DNA of 23,527 nucleotides, taken from a virus. A program made the translations under genes and the position numbers. Shown in pieces: positions 2,777-19,862 of the stretch. Under the pieces are notes generated by a model, which saw only the letters and a list, made by a program, of their open reading frames with translations, searched no databases and was not told where the DNA came from. The DNA lies in IMG/VR virus record IMGVR_UViG_3300003890_000033, positions 18,105 to 41,631 of that record; one strand, 5' to 3'. The number at the start of each line of letters is the position of its first letter. Positions within the stretch are counted from its first letter, which is position 1.

Positions 2777-2787
2777 ATTTGTGGATT

Positions 2788-3471
2788 ATGGCAAGAAGCT
2801 CATCTGAAGACCCTATTGAAAAATTTAGATTTAAAGTGGAAATATTTTCCATTGATTTGCTTGCGACTGGAGACTTAAGCCAAAGCGCAGCTAATGCTGC
2901 CTTTAGTGGACTAAGGAATCTTATAGTTCCTACTCTTACTAGAGCAGGTTTTAGTGAAATAGTTCTTCCCGAAGTCACGGTTAATACCATAAGTTATAGG
3001 GAAAATATAGATAATCAAAGATTTAGCAAAGGCCCTGGATTAGTAAAGTACGACCCTGTTGTTTTACGTAGAGGCGCTACTAAAAGTCGGGAGTTGTATG
3101 AATGGTATAGATTAGTAAACAACGATACTTCATTACTAGGAGCAGCACAAGAAATAGGTGGAGACGCTACTGTACCAGGCCAAAGTGAGAATTTTAGAAA
3201 AGAGGTTCTTATAACCTCTATAGATCGAGAAGGTAATACCGTTAAGCAATGGATGCTATTTAATGCATACCCTGCTAAGTATAAAGGCGGTAATGACTTA
3301 AACGCCCAATCAGAAGAAAAGCTAGTAGAAGAATTAACTATTGAATATGAATTCTTTTTAGAACTAGATAGTGGTGGATTGGCAGTTGAATTGGAAAAGG
3401 ATGCGGCTATTGCGGGAGCGAATACAGCAGCTAACATAGCAGCAAAAGTAAATCTACCCTTTACGAGGTAA
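2788..3471 (+). CDS. Tail tube paralogue, probable tube initiator
   Basis: A 227-residue protein in the T4 gp19 tube family. I chose the ATG at 2788 (MARSSSEDPIEKFRFKV) because it aligns with the start of both neighbouring paralogues; a TTG nine bases upstream would add only three residues. Shared features are the N-terminal motif, EVLITSIDREGNTVKQWMLF, then NAYPAKY and LTIEYEFFLE. It is longer than the main tube owing to extra residues near the N-terminus and an alanine-rich tail (about 200-227). In T4 and in Afp/PVC-like systems, extra tube-fold proteins form the first rings on the baseplate, and that is the likely role here. There is no clear ribosome site: the preceding bases are the terminator T-run and ATTTGTGGATT. 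Arginine codons are mostly AGA/AGG (10 of 13). All this points to low expression. Confidence 0.8.
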   Translation: MARSSSEDPIEKFRFKVEIFSIDLLATGDLSQSAANAAFSGLRNLIVPTLTRAGFSEIVLPEVTVNTISYRENIDNQRFSKGPGLVKYDPVVLRRGATKSRELYEWYRLVNNDTSLLGAAQEIGGDATVPGQSENFRKEVLITSIDREGNTVKQWMLFNAYPAKYKGGNDLNAQSEEKLVEELTIEYEFFLELDSGGLAVELEKDAAIAGANTAANIAAKVNLPFTR

Positions 3472-3474
3472 TAT

Positions 3475-4002
3475 ATGGCTAGGCCATCAAGCAAAGACCC
3501 TTTAGACAAATTTAGATGGATTGTAGAAGTAGATGGCTTTAGCAGATTAGGCTTTACCTCAGTAGAAGTACCATCAGTTAGCATTAATGTGAAGAATTAT
3601 GCTGAAGGTGGAAGTCATTTGTTTCCTAGAAAGATTATTGATGGAGTGACATATTCTCCAATAGTTCTTCAAAGAGGAGTTACTTCAGATAGAAGCTTTC
3701 ATGAATGGGCCGCAGGATTCATAGATTTACTTCATAATGTAGACGGAGTCGCAGGTTATAGACGTAACCTAGTTATTAAACATTTAGATAGATTAGGTAG
3801 AGTAGTTAGGGAATATCGTATTTATGATGCCTTTCCTAGCGAATATAAACCGGCTTCAGATTTTGCCGCAGATTCAGATGATACGTACAGTTTAGAAAGA
3901 ATAACTCTAGAATATGAAAGTTTTGAAGTTATTGTTCCTGGACAAGAGAACAATGCATTCAACATTAAAGATTTAGCAAAACGTTTAATTAGAGGCACTT
4001 AA
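3475..4002 (+). CDS. Second tail tube paralogue, probable tube initiator
   Basis: A 175-residue T4 gp19-family protein starting MARPSSKDPLDKFRWIVEV, clearly paralogous to the two genes before it. Conserved features are YRRNLVIKHLDRLGRVVREY, then YDAFPSEYKPASDF and LERITLEYESFEV (about 100-155). It sits 3 bases after the previous stop, with CGAGG (3463-3467) as the ribosome site inside the end of that gene, so the two are probably co-translated. Arginine use is 12 AGA/AGG to 3 CGN, in contrast to the main tube. It most likely forms a ring joining tube and baseplate hub, comparable to T4 gp48/gp54 or Afp5. The exact position in the particle is inference. Confidence 0.82.
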   Translation: MARPSSKDPLDKFRWIVEVDGFSRLGFTSVEVPSVSINVKNYAEGGSHLFPRKIIDGVTYSPIVLQRGVTSDRSFHEWAAGFIDLLHNVDGVAGYRRNLVIKHLDRLGRVVREYRIYDAFPSEYKPASDFAADSDDTYSLERITLEYESFEVIVPGQENNAFNIKDLAKRLIRGT

Positions 4003-4021: not shown

Positions 4022-4633
4022 ATGAAAAAATGTACTAAATGTTTTGAATTAAAAACTAATGAAAATTTTTACAAAAAGAAAAATAGTTTAAGGTCAGAAT
4101 GTATAGTATGTTCAAAAGCATATAATAAATCGTTTAAAATTAAAAATCCTAATTATTCTAAAAATTATGAAGAGCAAAACAAAGAAGTTATTAAACAAAG
4201 AAAAGCAGATTATTGGCTAAATAATAAAGATAAGTATCAAAAATATAGAGATCTTAATAAAGAAAAATTAAGAATTTATTATAAAAATAGAGCTAGACAA
4301 AAAAGAAAGTCAGATATTAATTTTAGATTGACTTTAAGTTTACGTTCTAGATTGAATAAAGCAATTAAAAGACAACAAAAAGCTGGGTCTTTCATAAAAG
4401 ATTTAGGATGTTTTATAGAAGAATTAAAACAACATCTACAGTCCAAATTTCAACCAGGAATGACTTGGGAGAACTACGGTAAATGGTATATTGATAATAT
4501 TAGACCATTAAGTAGTTTTAATTTAGAAGATAGAAAAGAATTTATTTTAGCATGTAACTATAATAATTTACAACCTTTGTGGGCTAAAGACAATTTAAGA
4601 AAAAGTAATAAAATTTTACAAGAGGAGATGTAA
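4022..4633 (+). CDS. HNH-family endonuclease with degenerate active site
   Basis: A 203-residue protein of the phage HNH endonuclease type, probably a free-standing homing endonuclease gene lodged among the tail genes. The N-terminus is a zinc-ribbon-like CxxC...CxxC (C4, C7, C27, C30), followed by a lysine-rich helical stretch (about 40-120). The C-terminal domain has GMTWENYGKWYIDNIRPLSS (about 146-165) and NNLQPLWAKDNLRKS (181-195). In active relatives the first block reads WHIDHI; here both histidines are replaced (Y156 and N159), each explained by one base change from CAT. The asparagine of NLQPLW and the last motif asparagine remain. The gene is visibly more AT-rich and lysine-rich than its neighbours, which fits horizontal arrival. 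The next gene's ribosome site (AGAGGAG, 4621-4627) lies in its 3' end. Confidence 0.85.
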   Translation: MKKCTKCFELKTNENFYKKKNSLRSECIVCSKAYNKSFKIKNPNYSKNYEEQNKEVIKQRKADYWLNNKDKYQKYRDLNKEKLRIYYKNRARQKRKSDINFRLTLSLRSRLNKAIKRQQKAGSFIKDLGCFIEELKQHLQSKFQPGMTWENYGKWYIDNIRPLSSFNLEDRKEFILACNYNNLQPLWAKDNLRKSNKILQEEM

Positions 4634-4634
4634 A

Positions 4635-5396
4635 ATGTTAGTTATGCTACCAAACGGCTTGCTCGATGGGCAAGACCATTTTAATATAGCTGAGATTGAC
4701 GAATTGCGAGGCAAGCAACAAAACTATTTGGTCGATAAAGAACTAGTAGTCGGAAATATAGGACACTTACCTAAAATTCTAGCGGATATGATTCTTTCGC
4801 TTCAAACGAAAGAAGGAGTTCACTGGAAAGGGGACATGAGTGAAGCTATTTATAAGCTTCCTTCTGGAGATCTAGAAACTATTCTAGTTAAAGTTCGTGA
4901 GAATACTTACGGACCTAAGTTCTATCATGAAGCAGAGTGCCCTCACTGTCAACATATCAATAAAAATTTACGCTTAGATTTAGACAAACTAGAGATTAAA
5001 TATTACCCTTTAGAGCAAATGCTTACTAAAAAAGTTGTGCAATTGCCTAAAGCTAAAGTGGAAGTTGAGCTTAAGCCTATTTACCTTAAAGACCTTTTTG
5101 AGGTTGTTAAGATTACTAAGAATAAGCACGACGCTCTAGTTACTTCATTGATGGCCGTGTCCATCAAGAGAATTGGAGATAACACTAAGATTGATAGTAG
5201 TTCTATCGAAAAGATAACTGCTAGCGATCTAATGCATCTTCAAGAAGAAATGTCAAAGGTTACTTTAGAAGGAAGCATTGATACTAATATTCAAATTGAC
5301 TGCTCCAAATGTGAGAAAGAATTTGAAATTAAGTTGAATTGCTTTGATCCCTCTTTTTTCGACCATACCAAGGGCTCCAAGAGTACGACTATATAA
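4635..5396 (+). CDS. Tail/baseplate assembly chaperone, T4 gp26-like, zero-frame product
   Basis: A 253-residue protein resembling the T4 gp26-like baseplate family common upstream of tape measure genes in contractile-tailed phages. It has two CxxC knuckles, CPHC (102-105) followed by the strand KNLRLDLDKLEIKYYP, and CSKC (223-226) followed by EFEIKLNCFDP. Together these probably bind one zinc. The family acts during baseplate hub and tail assembly rather than as an abundant virion part. The gene lies directly between the tube genes and the tape measure, the classic place of frameshifting tail chaperones, and a perfect slippery heptamer sits at 5354-5360, 11 codons before the stop. The start ATG at 4635 is 1 base after the HNH stop. 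Confidence 0.8.
   Translation: MLVMLPNGLLDGQDHFNIAEIDELRGKQQNYLVDKELVVGNIGHLPKILADMILSLQTKEGVHWKGDMSEAIYKLPSGDLETILVKVRENTYGPKFYHEAECPHCQHINKNLRLDLDKLEIKYYPLEQMLTKKVVQLPKAKVEVELKPIYLKDLFEVVKITKNKHDALVTSLMAVSIKRIGDNTKIDSSSIEKITASDLMHLQEEMSKVTLEGSIDTNIQIDCSKCEKEFEIKLNCFDPSFFDHTKGSKSTTI
5354..5360 (+). promoter_or_regulatory. Probable programmed -1 ribosomal frameshift site (T TTT TTC)
   Basis: In the zero frame the codons are TCT TTT TTC GAC, so the bases form a perfect X XXY YYZ heptamer. The -1 frame is open from 5348, just after a TGA at 5345-5347, and stays open to the TAA at 5552-5554. The site is thus at the very start of the overlap, as in lambda G/GT and P2 E/E'. The shift would join 242 residues of the chaperone to 64 new ones, giving a 306-residue product. 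Confidence 0.82.
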
Positions 5397-5554
5397 GCCA
5401 CGAAGTAGATCTCTTGGATGATTATGTGTTCTTCGGGCAGACATATAGATGGCCTCCTAGTGAGATAGATGCAATGAGATGGTCAGTTAGAAAGACCATT
5501 AAGCAAGCATATAAAGATCATATGTCTAAGGTAAACAGTAAATCAAATGGCTAA
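5360..5554 (+). CDS. -1 frameshift extension of the assembly chaperone
   Basis: This -1 frame codes for 64 residues after the shift, beginning RPYQGLQEYDYISHEVDLL and including YVFFGQTYRWPPSEIDAM and WSVRKTIKQAYKDHM. It has no good start codon with a ribosome site: the candidates GTG 5426 and ATG 5474 would discard conserved-looking sequence. That supports expression only by frameshifting. The pattern of an acidic start, aromatic 'Y.F..Y.W', P..EI and a basic helical end resembles the small proteins found just after gp26-like genes in other contractile systems (DUF6760-like). That resemblance is from memory and weak. It ends inside the tape measure gene (8-base overlap with ATG at 5547), so it fills the apparent 150-base gap and couples the two genes. 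By analogy the extended form should bind the tape measure protein. Confidence 0.75.
   Translation, partial: RPYQGLQEYDYISHEVDLLDDYVFFGQTYRWPPSEIDAMRWSVRKTIKQAYKDHMSKVNSKSNG
5376..5418 (+). promoter_or_regulatory. Candidate stimulatory hairpin/pseudoknot for the frameshift
   Basis: TCCAAGAG (5376-5383) is perfectly complementary to CTCTTGGA (5411-5418), with a 27-base loop, and begins 15 bases after the slippery site. A second short pairing, GGCT (5373-5376) with AGCC (5396-5399), would cross the first and could make an H-type pseudoknot if one base is shared differently. The spacing is longer than usual for a stimulator, so this is only a candidate. Confidence 0.4.
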
Positions 5555-7646
5555 TAAATCTCTTGACATAGTAATAAAAGTTAGAGACGCTGCTACTGAT
5601 AAACTAAGGGAAGTTCAAAAATCCCTTAAAGATACTGGAAAAGCGGCACAAGATGCTTCTACCGATTTTACTAAGTTCAATAGAGTTTTATTCTCTGCTA
5701 CGGCCTTTATTGGTACCTTTCAACGAGCTTTTACCAGTATTGGTGCGAGCATTGAAAAGGGAGCAGAGTTCGACAGACTAAGCACACAATTTGAAAGAGT
5801 TCTAGGTCCAAGAGGAACGTTCTTTCAGAACGTAAAAACTCTAACAGATAACTCTATAGATCAATTTACGGCCATGCAGGAGGCGATTTCTCTTAAATCT
5901 GCTGGCATAGTAAAAAATGGTACTCAAATTGCAGACCTAATTGCTAAAGCTGGTACTGCGGCTAAGATGGCTGGTAAGTCTTCAGAAGAAGGCATTACTC
6001 ACGTATCTAAGTTCTTAAAAGATGGGTCTATTTCTCATCTAGAGTTCTTAAATTTAATATCTAGAACTAATCCAGAGCTACAAGCTCAATTGTCTATTCT
6101 TAAGGCAACTGGCGGAGTTTTAGGCACTGTTATAGAAACTCAACAAAAGCTAAGAATTGGTACGGCTTTACTAGATGCGGCTACAAAAGGATTTTTAAAA
6201 GGGCAACGAGATTTATTAGATGTAGTAAAAGATTTAAAGCAATCCTTTACTTTATTTAGAGCAGAAGTCGGCCTTTTCTTAGGAACCGCTTTAGGTGGAT
6301 TAGTTGATAAAGTAACAGAAGTTGTAACAAAGTTTACTGATTTCTTAGGAAATATCAGAAAAACTGATAAAAACTTCATAACCTTTACGAAAAACGTTAT
6401 TTTAGTAACTTCTGCACTTACAGGTTTTATTGCAGTTTTAGGCACCTTAAGATTAACTTTATTAGCTTTATCTTCTATCGGTATTGGTATTCCTCAATTT
6501 ATAGCTTTAATTGTAGCTGTAGGATTAGCCTTTAAAAATACTGATAAAGCTATTGATGGAGTTATTGGTAAGTTAAAAGGATTTTTTGAAGTATTTCGAG
6601 GGGTTGTACAGTTAATAAGTAATTTAGACCCCGCTACTGGCATTTCTAAGATGGACAAAAGTCTTCATGACTTCTTAAAGAAGCAAGGACTCTTAGAAAT
6701 AACCCTATTATTCGCTAAAATGGCTTCTGTTGTAAAGGCAGTGGTCAAGGATATATCTGAAGCCTTTGATTGGCTAAGCAACAAAATAGGCAAGTTCTTC
6801 GATATGTTAAAGAACTTCCTAGGAGACTTTAAAAGTCTTTGGAGCAATTTTTGGGTGTCTGAATCTTTGACACCAGTTGGTAAGTTTGCTCGTGCTGCTG
6901 CAGTTGTCCTTGGTGGTATTTTAGCATTTAAGGCTATGAAGGGTATTGGTGATCTATTATCCAAAATACCTGTAATAGGTAAACTATTTGGTGGTGGTGG
7001 TTCTAGAGGTGATAGTCCTCAAAATCCATTATATGTTCAAAATGTCAATGGTTTAGGGGGCTTAGGCGCTCTAGATTTTGGCGGAGTAATGGGAGATCTA
7101 GAAAAAGGTAAGCTAGTCAGTACTTTATCTGGTTTAGCTGTAACTTTAGCTAGGTTTGCTCCATTAGCATATTTATTGGCTACCGCTGGTGGTGTAATTC
7201 AAAATATCTTAAACCCTGAAAATGCTCCCAGTTCTGATGAGATTATAAATCGTGGCGTTATAGGTAATTTGATGCATCCTGGCGATTTTGCTTACGCTTT
7301 TGGTAGAGATGTATTAGGAGACATAGCTGGTAATTTATTAGAAAACAGCGTGTTTAATCCTTATAAAACTGCTACCGTTATTCCAAGTATGCCAGAGGAT
7401 AACCAAAAGAAACTAAATATTCTTAATAAAGTTCAATCTGATTTAAGAGCAGTTGATGTCGCTAGAGCAGATTTAATGGTTGATGCTATTGCTAGAGCAT
7501 TTAAACAAACTTCAGACGCTGGTAATAATATTTCATCTAGAGAATGGGTAGATATATTTAAAGTTGCTTTAGATAATTCTGTCGTTCTATCAAATATTGA
7601 TAAAGGTGTTAAGGATAAATCGCTAGGTAGTTCTAGTAGAAGGTAA
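5547..7646 (+). CDS. Tape measure protein
   Basis: A 699-residue protein that sets tail length and occupies the tube lumen until ejection. It starts MANKSLDIVIKVRDAATDKL and carries a helical, coiled-coil-like N-terminal third with KVRDAATDKLREVQKSLKDT. Two very hydrophobic stretches follow, at about 283-309 and 310-329, typical of tape measure proteins. A glycine-rich linker (GGGGSRGDSPQNPLYVQNV, about 482-500) resembles linkers seen in other phage tape measures. The position just after the frameshifting chaperone is diagnostic. At roughly 1.5 angstrom per residue the tail would be about 100 nm, if the whole protein acts as a ruler. The start overlaps the frameshift product by 8 bases. No peptidase or lysozyme motif was seen. 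Confidence 0.88.
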   Translation: MANKSLDIVIKVRDAATDKLREVQKSLKDTGKAAQDASTDFTKFNRVLFSATAFIGTFQRAFTSIGASIEKGAEFDRLSTQFERVLGPRGTFFQNVKTLTDNSIDQFTAMQEAISLKSAGIVKNGTQIADLIAKAGTAAKMAGKSSEEGITHVSKFLKDGSISHLEFLNLISRTNPELQAQLSILKATGGVLGTVIETQQKLRIGTALLDAATKGFLKGQRDLLDVVKDLKQSFTLFRAEVGLFLGTALGGLVDKVTEVVTKFTDFLGNIRKTDKNFITFTKNVILVTSALTGFIAVLGTLRLTLLALSSIGIGIPQFIALIVAVGLAFKNTDKAIDGVIGKLKGFFEVFRGVVQLISNLDPATGISKMDKSLHDFLKKQGLLEITLLFAKMASVVKAVVKDISEAFDWLSNKIGKFFDMLKNFLGDFKSLWSNFWVSESLTPVGKFARAAAVVLGGILAFKAMKGIGDLLSKIPVIGKLFGGGGSRGDSPQNPLYVQNVNGLGGLGALDFGGVMGDLEKGKLVSTLSGLAVTLARFAPLAYLLATAGGVIQNILNPENAPSSDEIINRGVIGNLMHPGDFAYAFGRDVLGDIAGNLLENSVFNPYKTATVIPSMPEDNQKKLNILNKVQSDLRAVDVARADLMVDAIARAFKQTSDAGNNISSREWVDIFKVALDNSVVLSNIDKGVKDKSLGSSSRR

Positions 7647-17687: not shown

Positions 17688-19862
17688 ATGCTTAAGTTTA
17701 ATACTATTCGTACCGCAAGATATCTACGAAGTCGATTCGTAGAGGGTAAATTCTTACTTGCGTCAGAAGGTACTGACATTCAGCTTGAGATTATAGACTT
17801 ACTTCGACGTACCATTAAATCAGATTTAGGTAATATCTTCATTGGGGACGCTTTTAAATTAGAACGTATTTCAGCTACACAAGTATTAGTAAGAAAAGGA
17901 GACGCTTGGTATGAAGGTCTTCCTTTTTCTATGCGTTCTAGTAAAGATGAACTAATTTCTGGCTCAGTTCTTACTAACGGCATTTTACCTCCAGGAGTAA
18001 CTATAACTGATTACTCTACTGGAGAAGGTAAGTTACTAACTTTTAGTATAGGTACTACTCCTGCCAATACGTACAAAATAATCATAACTGCAAGTGAAGA
18101 AGCAGTTACTGATGTTCAAGATCCGTTTTTAAAGAATGTTACTATTACCGAGTCTACTGGCCAAAAGATTCGTTTAAACTACAAAATCAATGTAGTTTTA
18201 AATTCCATTCAAACCGAAACTCCTATTCCATATATGGGAGAAACTGGAGCTTATAACGCTGCCAATTTAATTAATCAAGTTATGATTACTCCTACGGCTA
18301 GTGGAAATGGTGAATTGCTTGCTACCAATCTTATTGCTGGCTCAAGTATTGACGGTCGTGATTTAGAATTAGTTTTCAGAAATGATCCCGCTATTGGTGG
18401 TGGAAACCCCATGCCCATTACTACAGCACATCAAGAAGCTTTTTTTAATGGTAAGTTAATTGATAGTCGTGGCACTGAGTATCATATTAATGCTATCTTT
18501 TTAGATGCAGATACTACTAAAACTGTTATTCGTATTGATAAAGAATTTGGTCAACCAGATCCTCAAATCATCAATACTGTCCCTTTTTATATTAAGAAAA
18601 AGGATGTATATGTTGCTGATGATAGTTCTGGAGTGCCTAATGGATTCTTATTTCTACCTTTAGGAACAATTGAATGGACTTCTAGTGGTATTACTCACAA
18701 TTCTAAAGTAGTTGATAGTAGATCACGTATTGTTTTAGAAAAAGATTTTCAAAATATCTCTAATCAAAAATTTGATATTAAAGTTGTTTTAGGATCAGGA
18801 ACAGTACGTTTTAATCAAAGTGGCAGCCCTTTAGCTTTAAATTGGACTGGACCTTTCCAATTAATTAATCCTCATAGCTCTTTGATTCAAACTATTGCGT
18901 CAAATAATGTTCCAATGGTAGATCTAGGTTCATTAGCTTATGAAATGAATTTTTCTGGCGGAGCAATAGAACGTGGAAATCTTGCTGTTACAGTTTCTTC
19001 TGCTGGAGCTAATACAATTTTATCTGGATCTCCAGATTTATCTACAGTTAGATTAGGTAATGTTATTCAAGACTCTGGCGGCAACGTAGCTGTTATAACA
19101 GCTATAAATGATATAACTGATACTTTAACTGTCAATCCTTCACTAGTATCTACAGGGGCAGCGGTAATTTATAAAGATTCTTTTGGTCCTGGTTACGTAC
19201 CTTCAACCGAAAATACTTTTATTCTAGCTACTAGAAAAGGTAATTTCGTTTATGGGTCATTTCCTGTGGCCACAACCGATTTTTCAAGCGATATACGTGG
19301 TATAGAAGCCGAACCTCTGCACGATAGAATAGGCACTTTAACTGATGTTATTGGTGATGAACAAGAAGATCGTTCATTATATATGCGTTCAGCCAACACT
19401 GTATCGTGGACTGGTGGAAACAGCTTTGTTTGGACAGCAGATATTCTAATTCAAATAATTAATACAAAAAGTGGTACTGTAACAGAACATTCAATACCTG
19501 CAGGTTCTTTTACCTTAATTGATGGTGAAAGTGTTTGGGTATCTATTAATAGAACCGCCGCATCAGAAGTTTTGACTTATAATAAGTCTTCGATCACTCC
19601 TATTCCTGCTCAATCACAAGCGAATAAAGATGTATTAGTTTTATTCCGTAGGGTAGGTTCTGATCTTCAAATCCCAATTTTAAAACAAATGATAGTGTCT
19701 CCTAATACAGCTTTTTACCTAGGAGCAGTAGCGGGTACGTCATTCGATCTAACGCAAATACTAACCTCATCAGAGCAAACCATGGTAATCAATGGAGTTG
19801 TTAGTAACGTTAAAACCGGCAGTGTTTTAATTAGTAATGACGGTAATATACTTTTAGCTTAA
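17688..19862 (+). CDS. Large structural protein near the fibres, unknown
   Basis: A 724-residue protein that I do not recognise as a named family. It lies between the wedge and fibre genes, so it is probably a baseplate-periphery or fibre-network component, in the place of T4 gp8-gp10 or an Afp13-type adaptor; this is inference. The N-terminus (RTARYLRSRFVEGKFLLASE, then TDIQLEIIDLLRRTIKSDLG) is helical with many charges. A middle unit (about 225-303, FNGKLIDSRGTEYHINAIFL) looks like a loose beta module. A clear module copy is at 431-496. The rest is strand-rich. The start has a ribosome site AAAGAGG (17676-17682). The 15-base gap upstream and the CGN-rich first codons suggest a translation unit of its own. 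Confidence 0.72.
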   Translation: MLKFNTIRTARYLRSRFVEGKFLLASEGTDIQLEIIDLLRRTIKSDLGNIFIGDAFKLERISATQVLVRKGDAWYEGLPFSMRSSKDELISGSVLTNGILPPGVTITDYSTGEGKLLTFSIGTTPANTYKIIITASEEAVTDVQDPFLKNVTITESTGQKIRLNYKINVVLNSIQTETPIPYMGETGAYNAANLINQVMITPTASGNGELLATNLIAGSSIDGRDLELVFRNDPAIGGGNPMPITTAHQEAFFNGKLIDSRGTEYHINAIFLDADTTKTVIRIDKEFGQPDPQIINTVPFYIKKKDVYVADDSSGVPNGFLFLPLGTIEWTSSGITHNSKVVDSRSRIVLEKDFQNISNQKFDIKVVLGSGTVRFNQSGSPLALNWTGPFQLINPHSSLIQTIASNNVPMVDLGSLAYEMNFSGGAIERGNLAVTVSSAGANTILSGSPDLSTVRLGNVIQDSGGNVAVITAINDITDTLTVNPSLVSTGAAVIYKDSFGPGYVPSTENTFILATRKGNFVYGSFPVATTDFSSDIRGIEAEPLHDRIGTLTDVIGDEQEDRSLYMRSANTVSWTGGNSFVWTADILIQIINTKSGTVTEHSIPAGSFTLIDGESVWVSINRTAASEVLTYNKSSITPIPAQSQANKDVLVLFRRVGSDLQIPILKQMIVSPNTAFYLGAVAGTSFDLTQILTSSEQTMVINGVVSNVKTGSVLISNDGNILLA
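18360..18596 (+). repeat. Possible divergent beta module in the 724-residue protein
   Basis: Residues 225-303, including FFNGKLIDSRGTEYHINAIF followed by LDADTTKTVIRIDKEF. The 'G.lIDS.G...xI.aI..D...T.i.I' pattern resembles the module, but the flanks do not align well. Confidence 0.3.
18978..19175 (+). repeat. Beta module copy in the 724-residue protein
   Basis: Residues 431-496, TILSGSPDLSTVRLGNVIQD followed by SGGNVAVITAINDITDTLTV. It is closest to the sheath insertion: both have LSG.P.LST...G..I......V..ITA.ND..D.LT. Confidence 0.75.

Follow-up and report, generated by a model that had tools for sequence, protein, structure and literature searches.

The window, by which we mean the whole stretch of 23,527 nucleotides analysed here (positions 18,105 to 41,631 of the IMG/VR virus record IMGVR_UViG_3300003890_000033), contains paralogues of a tail tube gene followed by a putative tail assembly chaperone gene and, directly downstream of the latter, by a tape measure gene. 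The chaperone gene (4635 to 5396, on the plus strand, as are the heptamer, the extension, the stem and the tape measure gene described below) codes in its zero frame for a short product of 253 aa, TAC-N, which matches the T4 gp26/gp51 family (PF12322 and phrog_150) and ends at a TAA codon (5394-5396). Before this stop lies a zero-frame slippery heptamer, T_TTT_TTC (5354-5360), within the codons TCT TTT TTC GAC. The -1 frame is closed upstream of the heptamer by a TGA (5345-5347), stays open for 64 codons after the slip and ends at a second TAA (5552-5554). The resulting extension, TAC-C (5357 to 5554 including the stop), overlaps by 8 bases the start, at 5547, of the tape measure gene (5547 to 7646; phrog_1272, phrog_9145 and phrog_167, tail length tape measure). 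Taking both parts together, a -1 shift at 5354-5360 would yield a predicted long product, TAC-N plus TAC-C, encoded from 4635 to 5554. The initial annotation had described this heptamer and its phase, the opening of the -1 frame after the TGA, its length and the 8 bases that it shares with the tape measure gene, and all of these coordinates proved exact when the sequence was read again.

Upstream, the tail tube paralogues occur as three tandem copies (2151-2723, 2779-3471 and 3475-4002), which are also found in relatives where the locus reaches that far; a similar tail-tube triplication is described in the Vandenendeviridae (phage Adele paper, PMC12846349). Between the third copy and the chaperone gene, an endonuclease-like ORF (4022-4633; phrog_1035, endonuclease VII, E 1.3e-11) is missing in the compared relatives, in which the corresponding gap measures 18-42 bases, and it looks like a mobile insertion.

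The zero-frame protein matches the PF12322 profile (T4_baseplate) with an E value of 6.9e-12 and 46 bits, above the curated cutoff of 24.5, and T4 gp26 and gp51 both fall in the same family by profile scan. By sequence, it is thus a member of the PF12322 tail assembly chaperones of T4-like phages, in agreement with its earlier description as gp26-like. Two CxxC pairs, C102/C105 and C223/C226, are invariant in 13 sequences, which suggests that the protein binds zinc. The structure predicted for it (mean pLDDT 84.8) is similar to models of SP-15 and T4-like hub proteins, and the better of two matches among solved structures was the HK97 tail assembly chaperone 2ob9 (HK97 gp13 fold), a match that is weak by itself (Z 4.2, 92 residues aligned, 4.5 A). 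Relatives of the chaperone were not found in bacterial and archaeal genome contigs.

A slippery heptamer is in itself an unremarkable feature of this DNA. The ORFs of the window contain 41 zero-frame X_XXY_YYZ sites, several of them T6 runs, and, for a genome as AT-rich as this one, the codons that make up the heptamer are by themselves nothing rare. Since such heptamers are common in the window, the case for frameshifting rests on position and conservation. Three queries, namely the baseplate J protein, the chaperone and the extension, were used to scan viral contigs for relatives, and we counted those whose contig reaches the site after removal of identical copies. This left 13 distinct relatives with 49-64% chaperone protein identity to the window; two pairs among them (L017/L023 and L025/L026) are near-identical, so that the independent lineages are fewer than 13. 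Both the heptamer and the extension are kept in all of them. The homologous codons read TTTTTTC in 12 of the 13 and TTTTTTA in the remaining one (L018), both of which permit perfect tandem slippage. The surroundings of the site are freer: the preceding residue can be Ser, Asp, Thr or Gly, always with a codon ending in T, the following codon specifies Asp, Ala, Ser or Tyr, and the short zero-frame tail that follows is variable.

Past the zero-frame stop, the mean pairwise pN/pS over 12 sequences was 0.29 in the -1 frame, which lacks stops, versus 1.15 in the zero frame (1-4 stops) and 1.21 in the +1 frame (2-8 stops), each of these two frames being interrupted in every one of the 12 sequences; the values are Nei-Gojobori counts, uncorrected for multiple hits and averaged over non-independent pairs. 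Purifying selection acts on the extension in the -1 frame alone. The extension measures 61-65 codons in the sequences that cover it completely, a count over the relatives giving 61-63, and keeps 56-68% identity in relatives.

Such a conserved reading frame might belong to a separate small protein initiated by translational coupling at a start of its own, namely TTG at 5414, GTG at 5426 or ATG at 5474. Start-type codons do exist in the -1 frame, and relatives of the extension in the GpE family (see below) are often annotated as separate genes. However, in the window these codons occur only at the three positions just given and at 5522 (ATG), and all four fall inside the conserved domain. In the five loci examined, the first -1-frame start-type codon appears +57 or +117 bases past the site, and in L005 and L008 it is an ATG at +117, downstream of a conserved FRPYQG...SHE.DLL block. 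The first residues of the extension are therefore conserved before any start codon, and independent initiation would lose conserved residues. As the initial annotation had stated, the -1 frame has no usable start, in the sense that no start codon in these five loci could yield the whole extension. Together with the retention of the heptamer, this makes an independent start very improbable, and strongly favours entry into the -1 frame from the chaperone gene by frameshifting.

A candidate stimulatory RNA stem accompanies the heptamer. Seven bases past it, CCAAGGG.TC (5' arm, 5368-5377) can pair with GA.CTCTTGG (3' arm, 5408-5417) about 30 bases on. Across 13 sequences 91.5% of the stem cells are paired, versus 31-62% in controls with the partner displaced by 1-3 columns. 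Compensatory change is seen at one pair, which is A-U in nine sequences and G-C in four; both changes are synonymous in the -1 frame (CAA/CAG and TTG/CTG). The stem, for which this is the single covarying pair and of which L005 has a weaker version, is probably real, judging from pairing across the alignment. Folded singly, the region of the window downstream of the heptamer favours a different partner and does no better than shuffled sequences (z -0.35). Inspection by eye showed no conserved Shine-Dalgarno-like stimulator upstream.

The extension itself points to the P2 phages. A profile-profile comparison (hhalign) with nine P2-like GpE' extensions gave a score of 32.7 (E 2.3e-6, probability 89%), 200 column-shuffled controls scoring at most 19.1; the first run, with one more option set, gave a score of 26.8 (E 4.5e-5). 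The diverse GpE' sequences were taken from annotated phages because scans of viral contigs gave only near-identical P2 copies. The Pfam profile PF06528 (Phage_P2_GpE) matched one of 12 extension members (E 0.0057), the window's own member not being the one matched. The model of the extension consists of three helices, with block-mean pLDDT values of 92-95 over residues 21-60. Direct tblastn of the extension in phages returned chance-level matches only, sequence searches of NCBIfam and solved structures gave no relevant relative, and a fold search with the predicted model yielded nothing clear. A single common extension family was also considered; we do not claim one, as the profiles had no match to the extensions of T4 gp51, SP-15-type or jumbo phages.

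The locus resembles that of P2 in several respects. In P2, gpE and gpE+E' are the short and long chaperones of one gene, whose T6 heptamer lets ribosomes pass into the -1 frame, the gene lies between those for the tube and the tape measure, E' overlaps T by 8 bases, as here, and the extension domain is similar (W-P-P-S-E...M). By contrast, P2 gpE has 91 aa whereas the zero-frame domain of the window is of T4 gp26 type, with 253 aa and two CxxC pairs, and the P2 heptamer, T_TTT_TTG, ends in G instead of the C or A found in the window and its relatives. This comparison bears on the earlier proposal that the extension corresponds to a small protein encoded by a separate gene in other contractile systems. 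The likeness holds insofar as the extension resembles the GpE family, with its frequent annotation as separate genes, and this family is probably what the proposal referred to, but in P2 itself the corresponding sequence is a -1 extension of gpE. The further proposal that two genes had been fused here has the direction wrong, since P2 GpE' is itself the frameshift product of gpE; as a rule, both the short and the long chaperone come from a single gene. In lambda, too, a -1 frameshift just ahead of the tape measure gene yields two chaperones, gpG and gpGT; this relation rests on the literature. A chaperone with a conserved -1 frameshift is also reported for myophages of the Vandenendeviridae/Andersonviridae (phage Adele paper, PMC12846349); as described there, it resembles the present one in shifting into a region before the tape measure gene and differs in its slippery motif, given as GTTTTT.

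Frameshift-like junctions extend to the wider PF12322 family, as seen in small samples that were picked by similarity and do not amount to a survey; the Pfam scan covered SP-15, LIS04, GXN1 and BRock, and the other phages were linked by tblastn. Junctions read directly in Atu_ph07, Phosso, Paride, 121Q and GAP32 show T_TTT_TTC at the same Phe-Phe codons followed by an open -1 extension, and LR756511 has the same arrangement. The extensions of these five named jumbo phages differ from that of the window in having no recognisable sequence relation to it (hhalign probability ~1%). In SP-15, LIS04, GXN1, BRock, GiJojo, Mel-JY01 and LR756508, the extension is open in the +1 (equivalent to -2) frame, and none of them has T_TTT_TT(C/A) in the relevant phase. 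In the annotated records that we fetched, the extension is either a separate hypothetical gene or unannotated, never joined to the chaperone. In the jumbo phage loci of this kind (L053, L147, L148, L149 and L150), the frame after T_TTT_TTC is entered as a distinct hypothetical gene or left out of the annotation. The gp26-family loci with a +1 (or -2) extension (L009, L010, L011, L012, L054, L052 and L051), two of them Streptomyces phages, frequently have it at TTT_C and are likely unannotated frameshifts.

These junctions also bear on how the two frames might be joined. RNA polymerase slippage on the T6 run would produce the same fusion protein as ribosome slippage, and a homopolymeric T6 run is indeed what is conserved. 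Yet a run of six T is short for transcriptional slippage, and this one keeps the phase that lets both tRNAs re-pair, its sole variant being a C to A change in the last base. Moreover, the PF12322 phages with a +1-frame extension have their T runs in another phase or none at all, and the downstream stem is conserved, all of which leaves polymerase slippage little credit as compared with slippage of the ribosome. Homopolymer runs are also error-prone, but the idea that one longer gene has been split by a recent indel, or only seems split through faulty sequencing or assembly, is ruled out for practical purposes because independent contigs share the site: the break recurs in 13 distinct relatives, which come from different metagenomes, and cultured jumbo phages have it at identical codons.

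We consider that the tail assembly chaperone gene of the window most probably undergoes genuine programmed -1 frameshifting, of the kind known from lambda G/GT and P2 E/E' (probability about 0.93 on the comparative evidence). In our judgement, a T4-type chaperone appears to be joined here to a P2-type extension, which would represent a mosaic of parts and not a new mechanism. We infer the occurrence and efficiency of slippage, the role of the stem and the mechanism of the chaperone as follows. The majority of ribosomes would terminate at 5394-5396 and release the short, gp26-like form (PF12322). In a minority, with both tRNAs on T_TTT_TTC (5354-5360), the ribosome would slip back one base, probably aided by the downstream stem, and read on to 5551, and the resulting long form would carry a helical domain like that of GpE'. 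If the pairs gpG/gpGT of lambda and gpE/gpE+E' of P2 are a guide, numerous short copies might coat the tape measure protein encoded directly downstream, and the few long ones might recruit tail-tube subunits. The phage carrying the chaperone gene (4635-5396) would be contractile-tailed.

The T4 system offers an instructive comparison. T4 gp26 and gp51 share their N-terminal family, PF12322, with the zero-frame protein of the window, the end of gp26 (...EFFELL) falls, by eye, near where the window has its slippage site, and gp51 has a C-terminal extension carried in frame. From the shared PF12322 domain and the protein lengths, we read 26 as the likely short chaperone gene of T4 and 51 as the long one. 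Unlike the locus studied here, T4 would thus use two separate genes and no frameshift, and the extension of gp51 did not align with that of the window (hhalign probability 0.4%). T4, with its separate short and long chaperone genes, is presented as an exception in literature on these chaperones. According to the PRFect article (PMC10274946), which cites Vladimirov et al. 2022 on this point, a short chaperone gene exists beside a fused long one in some T4-like phages. Part of the wider gp26-family picture may already have been published in the cited work.

A tentative scenario, to which we give slightly less than even odds, is that the gp26 family is an old frameshifter. Slippage in the -1 direction at a fixed Phe-Phe T_TTT_TTC would have been kept in uncultured contractile phages and 121Q-type jumbo phages, others would use +1/-2 shifts at this same position, T4 would have lost frameshifting by duplication into 26 and 51, and the branch of the window would have swapped in a P2 GpE'-type extension. 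Apart from this scenario, the proposed frameshift places T4-type hub-assembly proteins alongside the frameshifting chaperones of lambda and P2, and it offers a clear test of how T4 acquired its separate short and long chaperone genes. It also points to a likely two-product gene whose parts stand unjoined in the present annotation of several cultured phages of the jumbo and SP-15 types.

Another frame break was seen in the neighbouring tape measure gene of one relative, L004, where matches lie in two frames around positions 2670-2690. The gene is continuous in the close relative L006, and in L004 the break probably stems from an indel or from faulty sequencing.
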